Below, piece by piece: positions 44,077 to 53,002 of a DNA stretch of 64,000 nucleotides. Within the stretch, counting starts at the first letter, position 1, and each line of letters opens with the position of its first letter. A program made the position numbers and the translations under genes. The notes beneath the pieces are model-generated. The model made no database searches. It was given only the letters and a program-made list of their open reading frames with translations, and was not told the DNA's origin. Source of the stretch: Lunatimonas salinarum (GTDB lineage Bacteria; Bacteroidota; Bacteroidia; Cytophagales; Cyclobacteriaceae); NCBI RefSeq assembly GCF_017811155.1, contig NZ_JACVCV010000005.1, forward strand, positions 62,001 through 126,000, read 5' to 3'.

Positions 44077-45066
44077 CTATTTTCGCTTAAAATGACTGCC
44101 CGAGTTCACCATGCCTCTTTCTCCCAAGGCATGCCGTGCAAAATTGAATCCCGGATGAACGGCGTAGGCGCCAAATTCTCCGTCTTTATTCAAAGCCAGA
44201 AATCCAGCTTGGATATTTTCAATATTACTATTTTTTGCGACAAGTCGCCTTACTGCTTCCTCACAGGCTTCTTGCGGACTCCTGCCCTGACGCATCAATT
44301 CCACGATCAAAAAGCTTCCACTGATTCGGATAATGGATTCACCCAACCCTGTGGCGGTAGCTGCGCCGACTTCGTCGTCTACAAAAAGGCCCGCCCCAAT
44401 GATGGGGCTATCGCCTACTCTCCCGTGCATTTTATAAGCCAAACCACTGGTGGTACAGGATCCTGCCATTTTCCCATTGGCATCCATACCAATCATGCCA
44501 ATGGTATCGTGATTTTCGATGTTTATTACCGGCTTGTACTCAGAAGTCTTCTTCCAGTTCTGATAGGCTCTTTCAGCCTTTTCACTCAACACTTCCTGTT
44601 CCATTGGAAATCCCTCGGCAAGTGCAAATTGGCGTGCTCCTTCCCCTACCAACATCACATGGGGGGTCTTCTCCATAACCAACCTTGCCAATGAAATGGG
44701 GTGCTTCACCTGTCGAACAAAGGCCACCGCCCCGCAGGCACCATCACCTCGCATAATCGAAGCATCCAACGTGGTAATACCTTCCCTATCCGGTAGTCCC
44801 TGAAGACCCACGGAAAGATTGTCCAAGTCATTCTCCGTCACCTTAACCCCTTCTTCTACCGCATCCACAATAGACTTACCACTATTAAGCACCTCCCATG
44901 CACGCTCGTTGGCTGCCATCCCATGGTCCCAGGTGGATAATATAAGCGGCATACTGCCTTTCCCAACAGGTTTGCCAAATGAGCCTTCTGCTATGGCAAG
45001 AGGAAAGGCAGCGCCAGCTCCAATTACCGTTTTTATTAAAAATTTTCTTCTACCTAGCATGGTCAT
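44077..45066 (-). CDS. N4-(beta-N-acetylglucosaminyl)-L-asparaginase (glycosylasparaginase)
   Basis: An Ntn-hydrolase that splits the GlcNAc-Asn bond left after glycoprotein breakdown. 329 residues. The autocleavage site and nucleophile Thr188 lie in ENHDTIGMIGMDANG, with downstream CTTSGLAYKMHGRVGDSPIIGAGLF and ATATGLGESIIRI, all matching the Flavobacterium enzyme family. The N terminus MTMLGRRKFLIKTVIGAGAAF looks like a Tat-type signal (twin Arg). The exact start could be Met1 or Met3. It lies 3 bases before cutC on the same strand and 269 bases from the divergent ROK regulator of the amino-sugar cluster. Confidence 0.93.
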   Translation of the reverse strand: MTMLGRRKFLIKTVIGAGAAFPLAIAEGSFGKPVGKGSMPLILSTWDHGMAANERAWEVLNSGKSIVDAVEEGVKVTENDLDNLSVGLQGLPDREGITTLDASIMRGDGACGAVAFVRQVKHPISLARLVMEKTPHVMLVGEGARQFALAEGFPMEQEVLSEKAERAYQNWKKTSEYKPVINIENHDTIGMIGMDANGKMAGSCTTSGLAYKMHGRVGDSPIIGAGLFVDDEVGAATATGLGESIIRISGSFLIVELMRQGRSPQEACEEAVRRLVAKNSNIENIQAGFLALNKDGEFGAYAVHPGFNFARHALGERGMVNSGSHFKRK

Positions 45067-45335: not shown

Positions 45336-46580
45336 ATGAATCTAATAGACCCAAAAGTAGTATTAGACAAAAAAGAAGGTGTAGTTGAGATAAAAAATTA
45401 CATCAATAAAATTAGAATCATTAAGGAATTATATACCGGCGGTAGCAATACAGCCAGTAATATTTGCCAAATGGTGGGCATAAGCCTTCCCACGGTTAAT
45501 TTATTGCTTTCCGATCTACTTGACGAAAAGATTGTGGTCAAGGAGGGCCGGGGGCAATCACAGGGAGGAAGAAAACCTGACCTATATGGACTTTCCGAGG
45601 ATTCCTTTTACGTTGTAGGAATTGACTTAAACCGCTTCTCCGGAAAAGCAGCAGTATATAACACCAAGAATCAACGCGTCACCGATATCTTCGTCAAAAA
45701 TATCCCATTAAACAACGAGGCAGTCACCATCGACTTGATTTACGAATTTGGCCAAGAAGTTATCCAAAGATCTGGAATTGCCGATGAAAAAATCATTGCC
45801 ATCGGGATTACCATGCCAGGCTTGGTAGACGGAACGGCGGGATTCAACCATACTTACCTTAAGTCTTCCAAGAAAAGTCTGACAGAGATTTGGGAAGGTA
45901 GATTCGGCCGTAAGGTATTTATCGAAAACGACGCCCGGGCCAAAACGCTTGCCGAATTTAAATTTGGGCAAAAGGGAGACTTGAAGAATGTACTCGGGAT
46001 GTTTGTTGACTGGGGAATAGGTTTGGGAATCATCATAGATGGCAAGCTTTACCGCGGATTTTCCGGTTTTTCGGGAGAATTTAGTCATTCACCCCTTTTT
46101 GATAACAAAGACATCTCTTGCTCCTGCGGAAAAAGGGGATGCTTGGAATCTGTGGCCTCCGGTACGGCAGTTATCAGGTTGGCCAAAGAGGCCATTGCAT
46201 TGGATGCGGAGTCGATATTGGCAAAGATGGCGCAGGCAAAGGGACAGGAACTGGATCCGTCTACGGTAGTGGAGGCGGCTATAGCGGGAGATCAACGTGC
46301 AATCGGGATTCTCTCAGATGTGGGGCTGGACTTAGGCAGAGGCATCGCCATATTGATTCAGTTGCTCAATCCGGAACTCATCATATTGGGTGGTGCGATA
46401 GCCGAAGCAAGTCAGTACATTACCACGCCTATACAGCAAGCGCTGAATATCTACAGCATGGCGAAACTTCGCGAAAAAACCGAGATCCAACTATCCAAAT
46501 TGGGAAGCGAAGTGGGCTTGATGGGTGCTGTAGCTATTGTCAACGAACACATATTCGAAGACACAATCAACTACAATTGA
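45336..46580 (+). CDS. ROK family transcriptional regulator (NagC/Mlc-like)
   Basis: 414 residues with an N-terminal winged helix (about 25-80, NTASNICQMVGISLPTVNLLLSDLLDEKIV) and a ROK sugar-binding domain. The ROK part holds VVGIDLNRF, ITMPGLVDG, ENDAR (Asp199) and the full zinc motif: His251 and C262-S-C-G-K-R-G-C269. It should repress or activate the adjacent NagB-like gene in response to a phosphorylated amino sugar, as NagC does (inference). It heads a plus-strand cluster with the NagB-like gene 35 bases on. Confidence 0.92.
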   Translation: MNLIDPKVVLDKKEGVVEIKNYINKIRIIKELYTGGSNTASNICQMVGISLPTVNLLLSDLLDEKIVVKEGRGQSQGGRKPDLYGLSEDSFYVVGIDLNRFSGKAAVYNTKNQRVTDIFVKNIPLNNEAVTIDLIYEFGQEVIQRSGIADEKIIAIGITMPGLVDGTAGFNHTYLKSSKKSLTEIWEGRFGRKVFIENDARAKTLAEFKFGQKGDLKNVLGMFVDWGIGLGIIIDGKLYRGFSGFSGEFSHSPLFDNKDISCSCGKRGCLESVASGTAVIRLAKEAIALDAESILAKMAQAKGQELDPSTVVEAAIAGDQRAIGILSDVGLDLGRGIAILIQLLNPELIILGGAIAEASQYITTPIQQALNIYSMAKLREKTEIQLSKLGSEVGLMGAVAIVNEHIFEDTINYN

Positions 46581-46615: not shown

Positions 46616-48943
46616 ATGCTAGCGAACTATCCTTTATCACCTGCTGAAGAAGCCTTTTTGAAAGAGTCCGGGGTGGAAAAAATCACCAGCAAAATCCCCT
46701 ACCTGATTGTGGACAATTTCCCAAAATTGGGATTGATGACTGCATGTCGGTTTTTAGAGTGGGCTGCTGACAATCCAAACGGTGTGATCAGCCTGCCTAC
46801 CGGAAAGACGCCGGAATACTTCATCAAATGGACGCAGTTTCTTCTGGAAAACTGGGACAAGAAAAAGGGAATGGAAATCCGTGAAAAATACAACCTTCAA
46901 AACGTCAAAAAGCCGGTTTTGAAGGATCTGCAATTTGTTCAGATAGACGAGTTTTACCCTATTTCCTCTTCTCAAAAAAACAGCTTCTACCATTATGTAA
47001 ATAAATTTTACATAGAAGGTTTCGGACTGGATCCAAAAAAAGCCCTTCTGATCAATTCGGACGAGATACCCCTCGCAAAAGGGAAATCCTACCGAGAAGT
47101 GTTTCCGGACTTCAAAGTGGATCTGTCACTACGCTTCCGAGAAGCCAACACCGAGAGTGAAAAGCAAAAGCAAGAGTCCATTTACCTAATAGACAAGTGG
47201 TGTGCAGAGTATGAAGCCAAAATAAGAGCGAAGGGCGGAATTGGATTTTTCCTAGGAGGCATTGGCCCCGACGGACACATCGCATTTAACACACGTGGCT
47301 CTGACCTTTTTTCAACCACACGGTTGACTGAAACGAATTTCGAAACACAGGCTGTTGCAGCCGGAGATCTGGGCGGCATTGAAATTTCGGCAAACCGATT
47401 GGTGATCACTATTGGCCTTGACACCATCGTACACAACCCCGAGGCAGTGGCAATAATCATTGCGGCGGGAGAGGCCAAAGCACCGATCGTAAAAAGCTCC
47501 CTGGAATCCGAGATGACCAACCTCTATCCGGCCACGGTACTTCAAAAATTGAAAGCAGGCAGATTCTACCTTACAAAAGGAGCTGCCGTTAAGCTGGAAG
47601 ATAGTGTGGAACGCTTTTACACCCAAGGGGAATGGTCTGAGACCAAAACAGAACGAGCCGTGCTGGATCTGTGTAAAAAGCTGCGGAAATATGGTCACCG
47701 CATCACACTGGAAGACCTTAGAAACGACAAATATACTGCGCTAATTCCAACCTTGAATGAACGAACGGCCAAGGAGGTAATCAAAAGCATCAGCGCAAAA
47801 ATAGACCGTGGTCTTGCGGAAGAAAAAAATGAGGTTTTACTTCATACGGGGCCTCACCACGACGATATTTCGCTGGGCATCTTGCCCCATATCACTAAAC
47901 AACTCCATGAAAATTCCAACTCAGCTCACTTTGCTGTATTGACTTCAGGATTCACGGCGGTAACCAATTCCTTCGTAATAGACACCCTGAAAAACACAAA
48001 GCGGTTTTTGGATGAAGGGCGGATTCAGATGGTGAAGTATGACGACTTTTTTGATACCGGCTACAAGCTAAAAATGGACAAAGATGTGTACCATTACCTG
48101 ACCAACGTAGCCTCTGAAAATGCAGACGAACGTCTACGAGGTCTGTGCCACCGGGTAGTGAGAGCCATCGTGTTTATCTATGGTGTAAAATCGCCCATGG
48201 AGCTTCGCGATCAGATCAACGAGATCATCACCGTTCTTAAAAACTCCTACGATGGGGAGAAAAATCCGAAAAACATACAGACGCTGAAAGGTATGATCCG
48301 GGAGTTTGAGGAAGAGTTGGTTTGGGCACACTTTGGTGTTCAGGTAAAAAACGTGCACCATCTACGCCTCGGGTTCTATACTGGTGATATCTTCACCGAG
48401 CAACCCGACAAAAAACGGGATGTGGAGCCCATTTTAAACATGCTCCGTGAAATCCGCCCTACCAAACTTAGCCTAACCTTGGATCCGGAGGGAAGCGGTC
48501 CGGACACGCACTACAAAGTATTACAAGCTACCGCTGAGGCCGTCAGGCAATGGGGAGAAGAAGAAGATCTGAGTAATTTCAAAGTAATCGGATACCGAAA
48601 CGTTTGGTTTAAATTTGATGCCGCAGAGGCCAACGTGATCGTACCGGTTTCACTCGGTGACATGTCTGTGATGGAGGATTCCTTTTCCAACTGCTACCTA
48701 AGCCAGGTAAACGCTTCGTTCCCAAGTTATGCCCACAATGGCAAATTCAGTACCCTGGCCAAAAATACTTGGGTAAACCAGTTGAGCGACGTTCAGCTAC
48801 TTCTTGGGAAAAACTATTTCTACCAACACGATACCGCAAAAGTGCGCTCAAGCCATGGACTGATTTTCTTCAGGGAGATGAATGTGGACGAATTTTTGCG
48901 TGAGGCAAGAGAGCTGGAGAAATCTACAGAAGGCATGTTCTGA
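46616..48943 (+). CDS. NagB-like deaminase / PIG-L deacetylase fusion protein
   Basis: 775 residues in two parts. Residues 1 to about 335 are a glucosamine-6-phosphate deaminase-like domain: LPTGKTPEYF, FVQIDEFYPI (Asp111 and Glu112) and GGIGPDGHIAFNTRG (Asp219 and His221). Canonical NagB has DGHIAFNE with a catalytic-triad Glu, and here Thr226 stands in that place. From about 405 a PIG-L (LmbE-like) zinc-deacetylase domain starts with HTGPHHDDISLG (His414, His415, Asp416, Asp417). Such fusions are known in Bacteroidota under the NagB name. The pair would suit a combined deacetylation and deamination of GlcNAc-6-phosphate to fructose-6-phosphate. That is a hypothesis, and no nagA lies in the window. 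It lies 35 bases behind the ROK regulator gene. Confidence 0.9.
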   Translation: MLANYPLSPAEEAFLKESGVEKITSKIPYLIVDNFPKLGLMTACRFLEWAADNPNGVISLPTGKTPEYFIKWTQFLLENWDKKKGMEIREKYNLQNVKKPVLKDLQFVQIDEFYPISSSQKNSFYHYVNKFYIEGFGLDPKKALLINSDEIPLAKGKSYREVFPDFKVDLSLRFREANTESEKQKQESIYLIDKWCAEYEAKIRAKGGIGFFLGGIGPDGHIAFNTRGSDLFSTTRLTETNFETQAVAAGDLGGIEISANRLVITIGLDTIVHNPEAVAIIIAAGEAKAPIVKSSLESEMTNLYPATVLQKLKAGRFYLTKGAAVKLEDSVERFYTQGEWSETKTERAVLDLCKKLRKYGHRITLEDLRNDKYTALIPTLNERTAKEVIKSISAKIDRGLAEEKNEVLLHTGPHHDDISLGILPHITKQLHENSNSAHFAVLTSGFTAVTNSFVIDTLKNTKRFLDEGRIQMVKYDDFFDTGYKLKMDKDVYHYLTNVASENADERLRGLCHRVVRAIVFIYGVKSPMELRDQINEIITVLKNSYDGEKNPKNIQTLKGMIREFEEELVWAHFGVQVKNVHHLRLGFYTGDIFTEQPDKKRDVEPILNMLREIRPTKLSLTLDPEGSGPDTHYKVLQATAEAVRQWGEEEDLSNFKVIGYRNVWFKFDAAEANVIVPVSLGDMSVMEDSFSNCYLSQVNASFPSYAHNGKFSTLAKNTWVNQLSDVQLLLGKNYFYQHDTAKVRSSHGLIFFREMNVDEFLREARELEKSTEGMF

Positions 48944-48968
48944 TCCTAAGGATCATGCCAAGAAAGGG

Positions 48969-49020
48969 GAACTTACCCTGCCGGATGGTTGCTGGCAGGG
49001 TAAGTTCTCAGTTCTTTTTT
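48969..49020 (+). terminator. Strong hairpin between the NagB-like and ROK kinase genes
   Basis: Perfect 14-bp arms at 48969-48982 and 48994-49007 (GAACTTACCCTGCC and its complement) around an 11-base loop, then TTTTTT at 49015-49020 after 7 bases. It probably terminates or attenuates transcription into the kinase gene. Confidence 0.75.
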
Positions 49021-49110: not shown

Positions 49111-50004
49111 ATGATAGCTAAAAATCACGTTTTAGGGTTAGACATCGGAGGAACCAAAATCAGCTCAGGGCTTAACGCCGATGGGTTGATCTTTGAGCGA
49201 TTGGAGAACAAAACACCTCATTCCGAATCACAGGAATACATCCTCGAGGCCATTGCTGAACAGATTTCCCACTACCTCCCCTATCGCTTCCAAGCCATTG
49301 GAATCGGAATACCGGGATTAGTAGATCCTGACAGGGGCATCGTATATAATTTAGCCAATATTCCTTCTTTTCAAAAAGTGCCAATGAAGGACTTTCTGGA
49401 AAGCCGGTTTAATGTGCCTGTTGTGGTAAATAATGATGCGAATTGCTTCACACTAGGAGAGTATCATTTCGGCCCAACTAAAATTCACCGTCATGTCGTA
49501 GGTATTACCTTAGGAACCGGTATAGGCACGGGAATCATTGCCAATAACCACCTCTATACAGGCTACATTTGTGGAGCAGGAGAATGGGGCGGGGTTAGTT
49601 ACCTCGACAAGACCTTTGAAGACTACTGCTCTAGCAAATTTTTCAAAGACCAGTATGGAGAGAGCGCCAAACGTCTGGCGAAACGAGCATTAGATCAAGA
49701 CCCGCTGGGGGTAGAAGCATTCAGCACGTATGGAACACACCTCGGCACACTCATCACCCGGATCCTATACACGTATGCACCCGAAGCCATTGTAATCGGA
49801 GGATCCATTCGAAAGGCTTTCCCTTTGTTTGAAAAAACCATGATGCAGGCGGTGGATACTTTCCCCTACAAAGCTATTTCGAACCATTTACGGATTTATG
49901 TTTCCGAATTGGACGACTCAGCGATATTAGGAGCGATTTCTCTGGTAGCGGAGCATCAATTTCAACAGGATAATTCCAAAATTTCTAATCCGGCCATCAG
50001 TTGA
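49111..50004 (+). CDS. ROK family sugar kinase without zinc motif
   Basis: 297 residues from the Met at 49111. The frame is open 52 codons earlier, but that part runs through the upstream hairpin and does not look like ROK protein. It has the ATP loop LGLDIGGTKISSG, GIGIPGLVDPD, catalytic base Asp109 in VVVNNDANCF, and ITLGTGIGTGIIANNHLYTG. The usual GExGH...CxCGxxGC zinc module is replaced by GAGEWGGVSYLDKTFEDYC, with neither the His nor the Cys cluster. It may phosphorylate GlcNAc or a similar hexose given its neighbours, but specificity is not proven. It has 106 bases between it and the hairpin and ends 77 bases before the haloperoxidase-like gene. Confidence 0.88.
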   Translation: MIAKNHVLGLDIGGTKISSGLNADGLIFERLENKTPHSESQEYILEAIAEQISHYLPYRFQAIGIGIPGLVDPDRGIVYNLANIPSFQKVPMKDFLESRFNVPVVVNNDANCFTLGEYHFGPTKIHRHVVGITLGTGIGTGIIANNHLYTGYICGAGEWGGVSYLDKTFEDYCSSKFFKDQYGESAKRLAKRALDQDPLGVEAFSTYGTHLGTLITRILYTYAPEAIVIGGSIRKAFPLFEKTMMQAVDTFPYKAISNHLRIYVSELDDSAILGAISLVAEHQFQQDNSKISNPAIS

Positions 50005-52135: not shown

Positions 52136-53002
52136 TTATTCTGAAAGTAAACGTATGCAATTACTAGCCGCACCGATCAGTGCTGCATCTTCGCCCAGTT
52201 GACTGAAGTGAACCGTCACGAGCCTGTGTTGCCGTTCCAATTCCTGCATCATTTCCGAATAAAAATAATCTCTCCCCTTGGCCAGGTTACCACCTATGAC
52301 GATCTGATCGATTCGCTCCATCTGAATGATTCCTGCGAGGAAATCGGCAAGATTCCTTCCAAATTCCTTAAAGGCTTGCTTGGCTACATCGGGCTCCAAG
52401 GCCAACAACTCTTTAGGACCTATTCCTTCACGCCCACATGTTTCGCTGGCATATCGGATAAACCACTCTGTACCCAAATAGTACTCCGCTTGCCGGCCCC
52501 TAAAGGGAGAAGACCAGAGCGCCGCATCCATTGCTTGATCGCCAAACCGGAATGCAGAACCCAATCCAGTACCGAGCGTGATACCCATAAGCCGATGTAT
52601 GGTAGGGATCCGTTGGTAAAGAGCCTCACCCTGTAAAAATGAAGCGGCATCGTTAAAAAAATGAATTTGAGCAGGTTGCAGACCCAAGCCCTGAGCCAAC
52701 AGATTCTTTACATTGCAAGCATATAGATGGCGAAACTTTCCCTGCTCCTTGAGTAGCGCCACCCCCTCGCCATAGTCAAATGGGGCAGGCATGGCAATTC
52801 CGATTTGATCCTCATGGGCTAGATGAAACGATGAGAGTACCTCCAGCCAAGCAGAGAGGATTTGGTCCTTTGTACCGTAAGAATCTACCGGCCGACGAAC
52901 CACCGATGCCGGAACCAATCTGAGTCGCTCCAACTCAACCCATCCGGCGGTGATATGAGACCCTCCAATATCTACGCCCAAAACCTTTCGGGAAAATTTC
53001 AT
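52136..53002 (-). CDS. ROK family kinase (glucokinase-like) without zinc motif
   Basis: 288 residues with VLGVDIGGSHITAG at the start, GIAMPAPFDYGEG, catalytic base Asp119 in HFFNDAASFLQGE, GITLGTGLGSA, and a late VIGGNLAKGRDYF. The region where ROK enzymes carry the His plus CxCGxxGC zinc cluster reads SSPFRGRQAEYYLGTEW, with no Cys pair, as in the plus-strand ROK kinase nearby. Its sugar is unknown. It begins 16 bases after the TPR lipoprotein gene. Confidence 0.88.
   Translation of the reverse strand: MKFSRKVLGVDIGGSHITAGWVELERLRLVPASVVRRPVDSYGTKDQILSAWLEVLSSFHLAHEDQIGIAMPAPFDYGEGVALLKEQGKFRHLYACNVKNLLAQGLGLQPAQIHFFNDAASFLQGEALYQRIPTIHRLMGITLGTGLGSAFRFGDQAMDAALWSSPFRGRQAEYYLGTEWFIRYASETCGREGIGPKELLALEPDVAKQAFKEFGRNLADFLAGIIQMERIDQIVIGGNLAKGRDYFYSEMMQELERQHRLVTVHFSQLGEDAALIGAASNCIRLLSE

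Follow-up and report, generated by a model that had tools for sequence, protein, structure and literature searches.

The fusion gene, its predicted folds and its neighbours

The window, that is, the whole stretch of DNA that was analyzed, comprises 64,000 nucleotides from Lunatimonas salinarum. Positions 46616..48943 of its plus strand form a single intact open frame, from ATG to TGA, encoding a 775-aa protein in which a NagB-like half is followed by a PIG-L half. We call this protein and its homologues the long form. The locus contains the following genes and features.

44077..45066, minus strand: Asparaginase_2 family protein, possibly a glycosylasparaginase (profile match)
45336..46580, plus strand: NagC-like ROK-family repressor, with an HTH and a ROK part carrying CxCGxxGC (profile matches, motif)
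46616..48943, plus strand: 775-aa NagB-like/PIG-L fusion protein, the long form (open reading frame, profile matches, homologues)
46694..47620, plus strand: predicted NagB-fold domain, residues 27-335 (AlphaFold2 model, VIA-align structure comparison)
47621..47821, plus strand: predicted helical linker, residues 336-402 (AlphaFold2 model; hardly touched by the fold comparison)
47822..48901, plus strand: predicted PIG-L-fold domain, residues 403-762, with a large helical insert (fold comparison)
48967..49009, plus strand: terminator-like hairpin just 3' of the fusion gene (18 pairs, T run, fold z -6.6)
49111..50004, plus strand: ROK sugar kinase without the zinc motif (profile matches, motif reading)

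The AlphaFold2 model of the fusion protein (pLDDT 90, pTM 0.88; 58-row alignment) predicts two complete folds in one protein with high confidence, which bears out the fusion of a NagB-like and a PIG-L part proposed in the earlier note. When compared with known structures by VIA-align, residues 27-335 matched 2bkv (Z 30.8) and E. coli NagB 1dea (Z 30.4), and residues 403-762 matched BshB 6p2t (Z 20.1), diacetylchitobiose deacetylase 8bgo (Z 18.9) and MshB 1q74 (Z 14.8). In profile searches the protein stayed under the cut-offs of TIGR00502 (NagB; 88.9 vs 236.9 bits) and NF002557 (PRK02122; 198.7 vs 384), and its PIG-L half stayed under the Pfam gathering score (20.2 vs 28.2 bits). Since long forms fall below these NCBIfam and Pfam cut-offs, standard annotation may overlook or misname them. 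When the PIG-L part was searched against the PDB by itself, only a chance match came up. We assign the C-terminal half to PIG-L because of its predicted fold and conserved zinc residues, despite the low Pfam score.

Conservation of the locus was analyzed in the best 80 of 456 confirmed relatives (73-97% identity), nearly all of which bear the names of Cyclobacteriaceae genera, a few being MAGs under other labels. A ROK kinase gene adjoins the long-form gene on its downstream side in 77 of these 80 loci, the exceptions being L058, L112 and L119, the last of which lies at a contig end. The repressor gene, which in L. salinarum stops 35 bases upstream of the fusion gene, has a counterpart in 13/80 loci, and the Asparaginase_2 gene in 7/80. 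The CxCGxxGC zinc motif was missing from 77 of the 78 kinase frames examined (L042-L121 and 49111-50004; the frame in excess of the 77 loci carried another ROK label). The kinase at 49111-50004 has GEWGG where ExGH is usual. A CutC gene also lies near the fusion gene on the opposite strand, and a third, divergent ROK-family gene, weakly similar to polyphosphate glucokinase, is found near the cluster at 52136-53002 (minus strand).

The mechanically called kinase frame, starting at 48955, crosses the hairpin, which makes 49111 the likelier start. In a simple scan, such a hairpin was detected in 25/79 loci, as against 0/79 mononucleotide shuffles; a general terminator scan found 3 sites where 3.3 were expected, and only the 18-pair stem stands out. 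Because the hairpin lies between the fusion gene and the kinase gene, their adjacency need not mean one transcript, and the idea of a strict single operon with the kinase is weakened by so strong a terminator-like structure.

The two putative active sites

Residue equivalences were taken from a profile alignment to E. coli NagB (1cd5), in which D111 corresponds to Asp72, D219 to Asp141, H221 to His143, T226 to Glu148 and K288 to Lys208. Their conservation was analyzed in an alignment of 83 NagB domains, from 39 long forms, 19 short fusions of the PRK02122 type and 25 single-domain NagB-like proteins. H221 is invariant in all 83; the other sites of the fusion protein, including those of the PIG-L half, are as follows.

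46805..46807, plus strand: Lys64 in the substrate loop TGKTP (39/39 long forms; Ser, Asn, Thr, Pro or Ala in the other rows)
46946..46948, plus strand: Asp111, equivalent of NagB Asp72 (invariant in 83/83 rows)
47132..47134, plus strand: Arg173 in a family-specific insert (39/39 long forms)
47270..47293, plus strand: DGHIAFNT, residues 219-226 (translation; profile alignment to E. coli NagB)
47477..47479, plus strand: Lys288, equivalent of NagB Lys208 (invariant in 83/83 rows)
47855..47866, plus strand: HHDD, residues 414-417 (H414 and D417 expected zinc ligands, D416 expected base)
48509..48511, plus strand: His632 in DPEGSGPDTH, expected third zinc ligand (39/39 long, 19/19 short forms)

Thr226 (codon 47291-47293) lies in the string GGIGPDGHIAFNT. 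That it occupies the place of Glu148, as noted earlier, was confirmed by the profile alignment and by all 80 Cyclobacteriaceae-type loci (best 80 of 456 relatives), every one of which has Thr. The residue is no sequencing error, because these loci share it with the proteins of two congeners (94 and 97% identical). Across the 39 long forms, position 226 is Thr in 16, Val in 17 and Ile in 6, and an acid in none; by contrast, it is Glu in 19/19 short forms and Glu or Asp (19 and 6) in the single-domain proteins, and thus acidic in 44/44. This comparison of Bacteroidota homologues gives no support to Thr as a special catalytic residue, and rules out Thr226 as a functional replacement.

D219 is Asp in 39/39 long forms, Thr, Asn or Ser in the short forms, and Asn (15) or Asp (10) in the single-domain proteins, so that the otherwise universal acid of the 83-row alignment is the one at position 148 and not that at 141. 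Judging from these residue patterns, the long and the short fusion families each lack a different putative relay acid. L018-L038 are PRK02122-type fusions with Thr, Asn or Ser at the Asp141 position (GRTGHIGFNE).

Arg172 and Lys208 are the phosphate pair of NagB. The position of Arg172 holds Gly, Thr, Val or Ser in long forms and Lys or Arg in 19/25 single-domain proteins, in an alignment that is possibly one residue off at this point; the fusion protein has no Arg or Lys within two residues of it. Our guess is that K64 and R173 might compensate for the lost Arg172. At position 238, which corresponds to the allosteric-site Lys160, long forms have Thr, Ile or Met. According to the accessible text of one report, Glu148 of the E. 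coli enzyme is in contact with His143 when the enzyme is in its R state and with Lys160 when it is in its T state (PMC4008608), so that Glu148 and Lys160 of this switch have been lost together in the long forms.

In the C-terminal half, the HHDD zinc motif, described as intact in the earlier note, is indeed present as H414-H415-D416-D417. Zinc ligands His, Asp and His and a base Asp would make up a putative metal site, with the roles of H414, D416 and D417 assigned on the assumption that they are those of BshB and MshB; H414, D416, D417 and H632 are invariant across the aligned fusions (39 long forms, 19 short forms). The first His of the motif is followed by a second His in all long forms (PHHDD) and by Pro in all short forms (PHPDD), and the last zinc His is preceded by DPEGSGPDTH in the former and mostly by DPHGTH in the latter. 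Typical PIG-L proteins have a His three residues ahead of the last zinc His (HPDH-type motif), and in MshB the His at that place is the proposed general acid. This His is missing from the long forms, 39/39 of which have Pro (P629); we can only guess that E625 or D630 could stand in for it.

Distribution, operons and NagA/NagB content

The long form was found in 9/59 related genomes, L. salinarum itself included, and no short fusion was seen in any of these 9 among the matches listed. In the phylum it was found in 35/395 genomes, 5 in the family to which L. salinarum belongs and 30 in other classes; the latter, referred to as group B, are 45-50% identical to the fusion protein (23 aligned) and have Val or Ile at position 226 in the proteins examined. 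In a tree of the NagB domains, built by a quick method for which long branches are a known risk, a very long branch with full support set all 39 long forms apart from the other rows. The tree rules out a recent origin of the Thr form from the short form and points to the long forms as an old clade distinct from PRK02122. They apparently constitute a widespread family of about 775-800 aa that is seemingly without prior study, as a search of the open-access literature found no study of the long-form fusion.

Among the 76 nearest neighbours of 20 group-B loci, few families recurred (GH18, GH94, ROK and MurQ/GKRP-type SIS 2 each; Amidase_3 3). Two genomes from different families, G177 and G135, have the long-form gene in what looks like a chitin operon. 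The gene order in G177 is GH18, GH94, long form, canonical NagB (437 bits) and DUF4954, the end of the GH94 gene overlapping the start of the long-form gene; in G135 it is GH18, GH94, an SSF transporter, long form, an acyl-CoA ligase, canonical NagB (432 bits) and DUF4954. We read the GH94 substrate from the adjoining GH18. The G135 ligase scored 547 bits against an acetate-CoA ligase alpha model with a cut-off of 567 and is related to ADP-forming acetate-CoA ligases; an acetate-activating ligase would fit such a chitin operon. NagA was not found in either genome at E<=1e-15. Both operons thus resemble a chitin route whose deacetylase slot is filled by the long form only, and we judge them to be the strongest single argument for a deacetylase role. 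Since both also contain a canonical NagB, the NagB half is not the sole deaminase there. The DUF4954/DUF6819 protein beside the canonical NagB in the two operons (L211:2081-4063, L212:2444-4423) has a weak left-handed-helix match.

The earlier note had suggested that the fusion might replace NagA, and had advised looking for nagA elsewhere in the genome. NagA (276 bits) and canonical NagB (271 bits) are both encoded elsewhere in the L. salinarum genome and both score over cut-off, so replacement fails for L. salinarum itself; for part of the family it is plausible, NagA being absent (E<=1e-15) from 24 of 43 long-form genomes and present in 19. NagB was over cut-off in 19/43 of these genomes, 7 of which have no NagA. 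In the control, the NagA search missed Bacillus subtilis, which we take to possess NagA, at E<=1e-15, and some NagA may therefore go undetected. At E<=1e-30, NagA was detected in 13/35 long-form genomes, 36/132 short-form-like genomes (the other genomes with a match at E<=1e-20, in most cases a short form) and 22/228 genomes with neither fusion. NagA is thus commoner with the long form than without either fusion and does not differ between long and short forms, which rules out that long forms in general simply stand in for NagA. These counts indicate that the long form accompanies amino-sugar metabolism in general, and the likely amino-sugar role expected earlier is supported.

A second NagB-like gene of L. 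salinarum, with the string ENGHLAFND, lies next to a sugar transporter gene of the MFS type in L040 (G000:C33:174098-174826) and possibly encodes a galactosamine-type deaminase. In several Cyclobacteriaceae, NagB-like and NagA-like matches fall within a single frame of ~627-644 aa, a NagB-NagA fusion (G003:C99:158289-160070, G035:C55:122778-124526, G468:C7:143746-145515 and G464:C17:137541-139310, among others).

All 11 Echinicola genomes examined have the long-form gene; 4 encode a NagA-like protein below cut-off and 7 gave generic 27-29 bit matches only. Of the five bacteria covered by Price et al., as far as the accessible text goes, four (panels A-D) were reported to need NagA to some degree when using glucosamine; panel E is the one for which E. 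vietnamensis is named. Echinicola vietnamensis mutants also have fitness data there for glucosamine and for GlcNAc (PMC9007349). In the available part of its description, GlcNAc is not among the sugars listed as used by Echinicola marina (PMC8683446). Algoriphagus locisalis, which carries the long-form gene (L094), is listed as GlcNAc-negative in API 50CH in the excerpt at hand (PMC11532033), and two Algoriphagus species from outside the genomes examined here for the long form are given as GlcNAc-positive in another (PMC12205151). For the 'NagB' of the F. johnsoniae chitin locus, the available passages report that deletion was harmless for chitin growth and that expression failed (PMC5127042).

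Proposed function and relation to known systems

From the domains, predicted folds, residue patterns, clade and neighbourhoods we infer both activities, the substrate and the pathway. De-N-acetylation is the likeliest predicted activity of the PIG-L half. As a tentative best explanation, this half would be a de-N-acetylase that depends on zinc and has GlcNAc-6-P, or a GlcNAc compound close to it, as its substrate; in part of the long-form family it would take over the step that in most bacteria falls to the unrelated enzyme NagA. The NagB-like half would be a binding domain and no standard deaminase. It would still bind a phosphorylated amino sugar, since the substrate loop, Asp72, His143 and Lys208 are kept and Lys64 and Arg173 are gained; without the acid assisting His143 and without the phosphate-binding Arg172, it would not be a standard GlcN-6-P deaminase and may serve for binding, regulation or channelling. 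A separate NagB, where present, would carry out deamination, and elsewhere GlcN-6-P may enter GlmM salvage. Two observations make us prefer such a binding role to standard deamination: the relay acid and Arg172 are lost throughout, and a separate NagB is encoded in two of the operons.

Several observations count against this explanation. L. salinarum has its own NagA and NagB, NagA is no rarer in long-form genomes, and most of the other group-B neighbours are unrelated to amino sugars. The PIG-L half is without the usual His, A. locisalis is reported as GlcNAc-negative, and the NagB pocket is conserved more strictly than would be expected of a mere relic. In addition, 14/43 long-form genomes lack NagA as well as any further NagB-like match at E<=1e-25, which a non-deaminating half leaves unexplained unless only salvage takes place. 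An overlapping set of 48 named Cyclobacteriaceae genomes, drawn from 50 of the 80 loci, has NagA in 27 and a NagB-like match (E<=1e-25) in 32, 7 of them over cut-off; both are missing from 16/48, and in 14 of the 16 no AgaS-type match was found either.

Because of such genomes without another deaminase, and because Asp72, Asp141 and His143 are strictly conserved (D111, D219, H221 and K288 are invariant in 39/39 long forms), deamination by the NagB half keeps some probability. The PIG-L half would then deacetylate GlcNAc-6-P and the NagB half, despite the lost Glu148, deaminate GlcN-6-P at a phosphate site rebuilt with Lys64 and Arg173, one protein replacing both NagA and NagB; we consider this possible but doubtful. 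It is likewise doubtful that, together with the kinase, such an enzyme provides a full route from GlcNAc to fructose-6-P, or that it serves GlcNAc catabolism or salvage where no other known enzymes exist. The loss of the acid and of Arg172 across the whole family speaks against a bifunctional enzyme, as do the canonical NagB in the same operon in two genomes and over cut-off in 19/43, and the A. locisalis phenotype.

It is quite unlikely that the NagB half runs a different reaction, as an isomerase or hydrolase of another sugar phosphate, coupled to deacetylation. 6-Phosphogluconolactonases have the DGH motif without the Glu, and the NagB-fold domain also resembles them in the fold comparison (Z 21-23); the strictly conserved, changed pocket and the very long branch that parts the long forms from all other rows are consistent with a new reaction. 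However, NagBs match far better (Z 30), and no neighbour points to such a substrate. That the protein is a sensor or scaffold in the metabolism of the cell wall or of amino sugars, neither half being an efficient enzyme, would fit two altered sites and the phosphosugar-sensing NagB-like folds of LsrR-type regulators (weak match to 4l5i/4l4y), but is very unlikely given zinc and catalytic-type residues that are invariant in 39/39 long forms and the presence of the gene in chitin-type operons without NagA.

In pathway annotation, NagA and NagB are taken as diagnostic of GlcNAc use. If, as in our preferred explanation, long forms deacetylate GlcNAc-6-P, many Bacteroidota scored as NagA-less have this step through an unrelated enzyme class; if the NagB half has remained a deaminase, the role currently accepted for Glu148 in the relay of NagB will have to be revised.

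Among known systems, the PRK02122/NF002557 short fusions (~650 aa, 'glucosamine-6-phosphate deaminase-like protein') have the same order, NagB-like then PIG-L, and share with the long forms the H143, D72 and K208 equivalents, HxDD and the final zinc His. The long form is about 120 aa longer and 23-26% identical to them; short forms keep Glu148 and have Thr, Asn or Ser at Asp141 and SPHPDD, whereas long forms keep Asp141, have lost Glu148 and carry PHHDD. To NagB (E. coli 1dea/1cd5, B. subtilis 2bkv) the likeness lies in the predicted fold (Z about 30) and in Asp72, Asp141, His143 and Lys208; unlike NagB, the long form lacks Glu148, Arg172 and the allosteric-site Lys160 and has inserts. With the PIG-L/LmbE deacetylases BshB, MshB and diacetylchitobiose deacetylase it shares the predicted fold, HxDD and the final zinc His, and it differs from them in its large helical insert and in having DPEGSGPDTH for the HPDH-type motif. 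The likeness to NagA (TIGR00221) is confined to the proposed reaction, deacetylation of GlcNAc-6-P, NagA being an amidohydrolase whose fold and ancestry are different from those of PIG-L.
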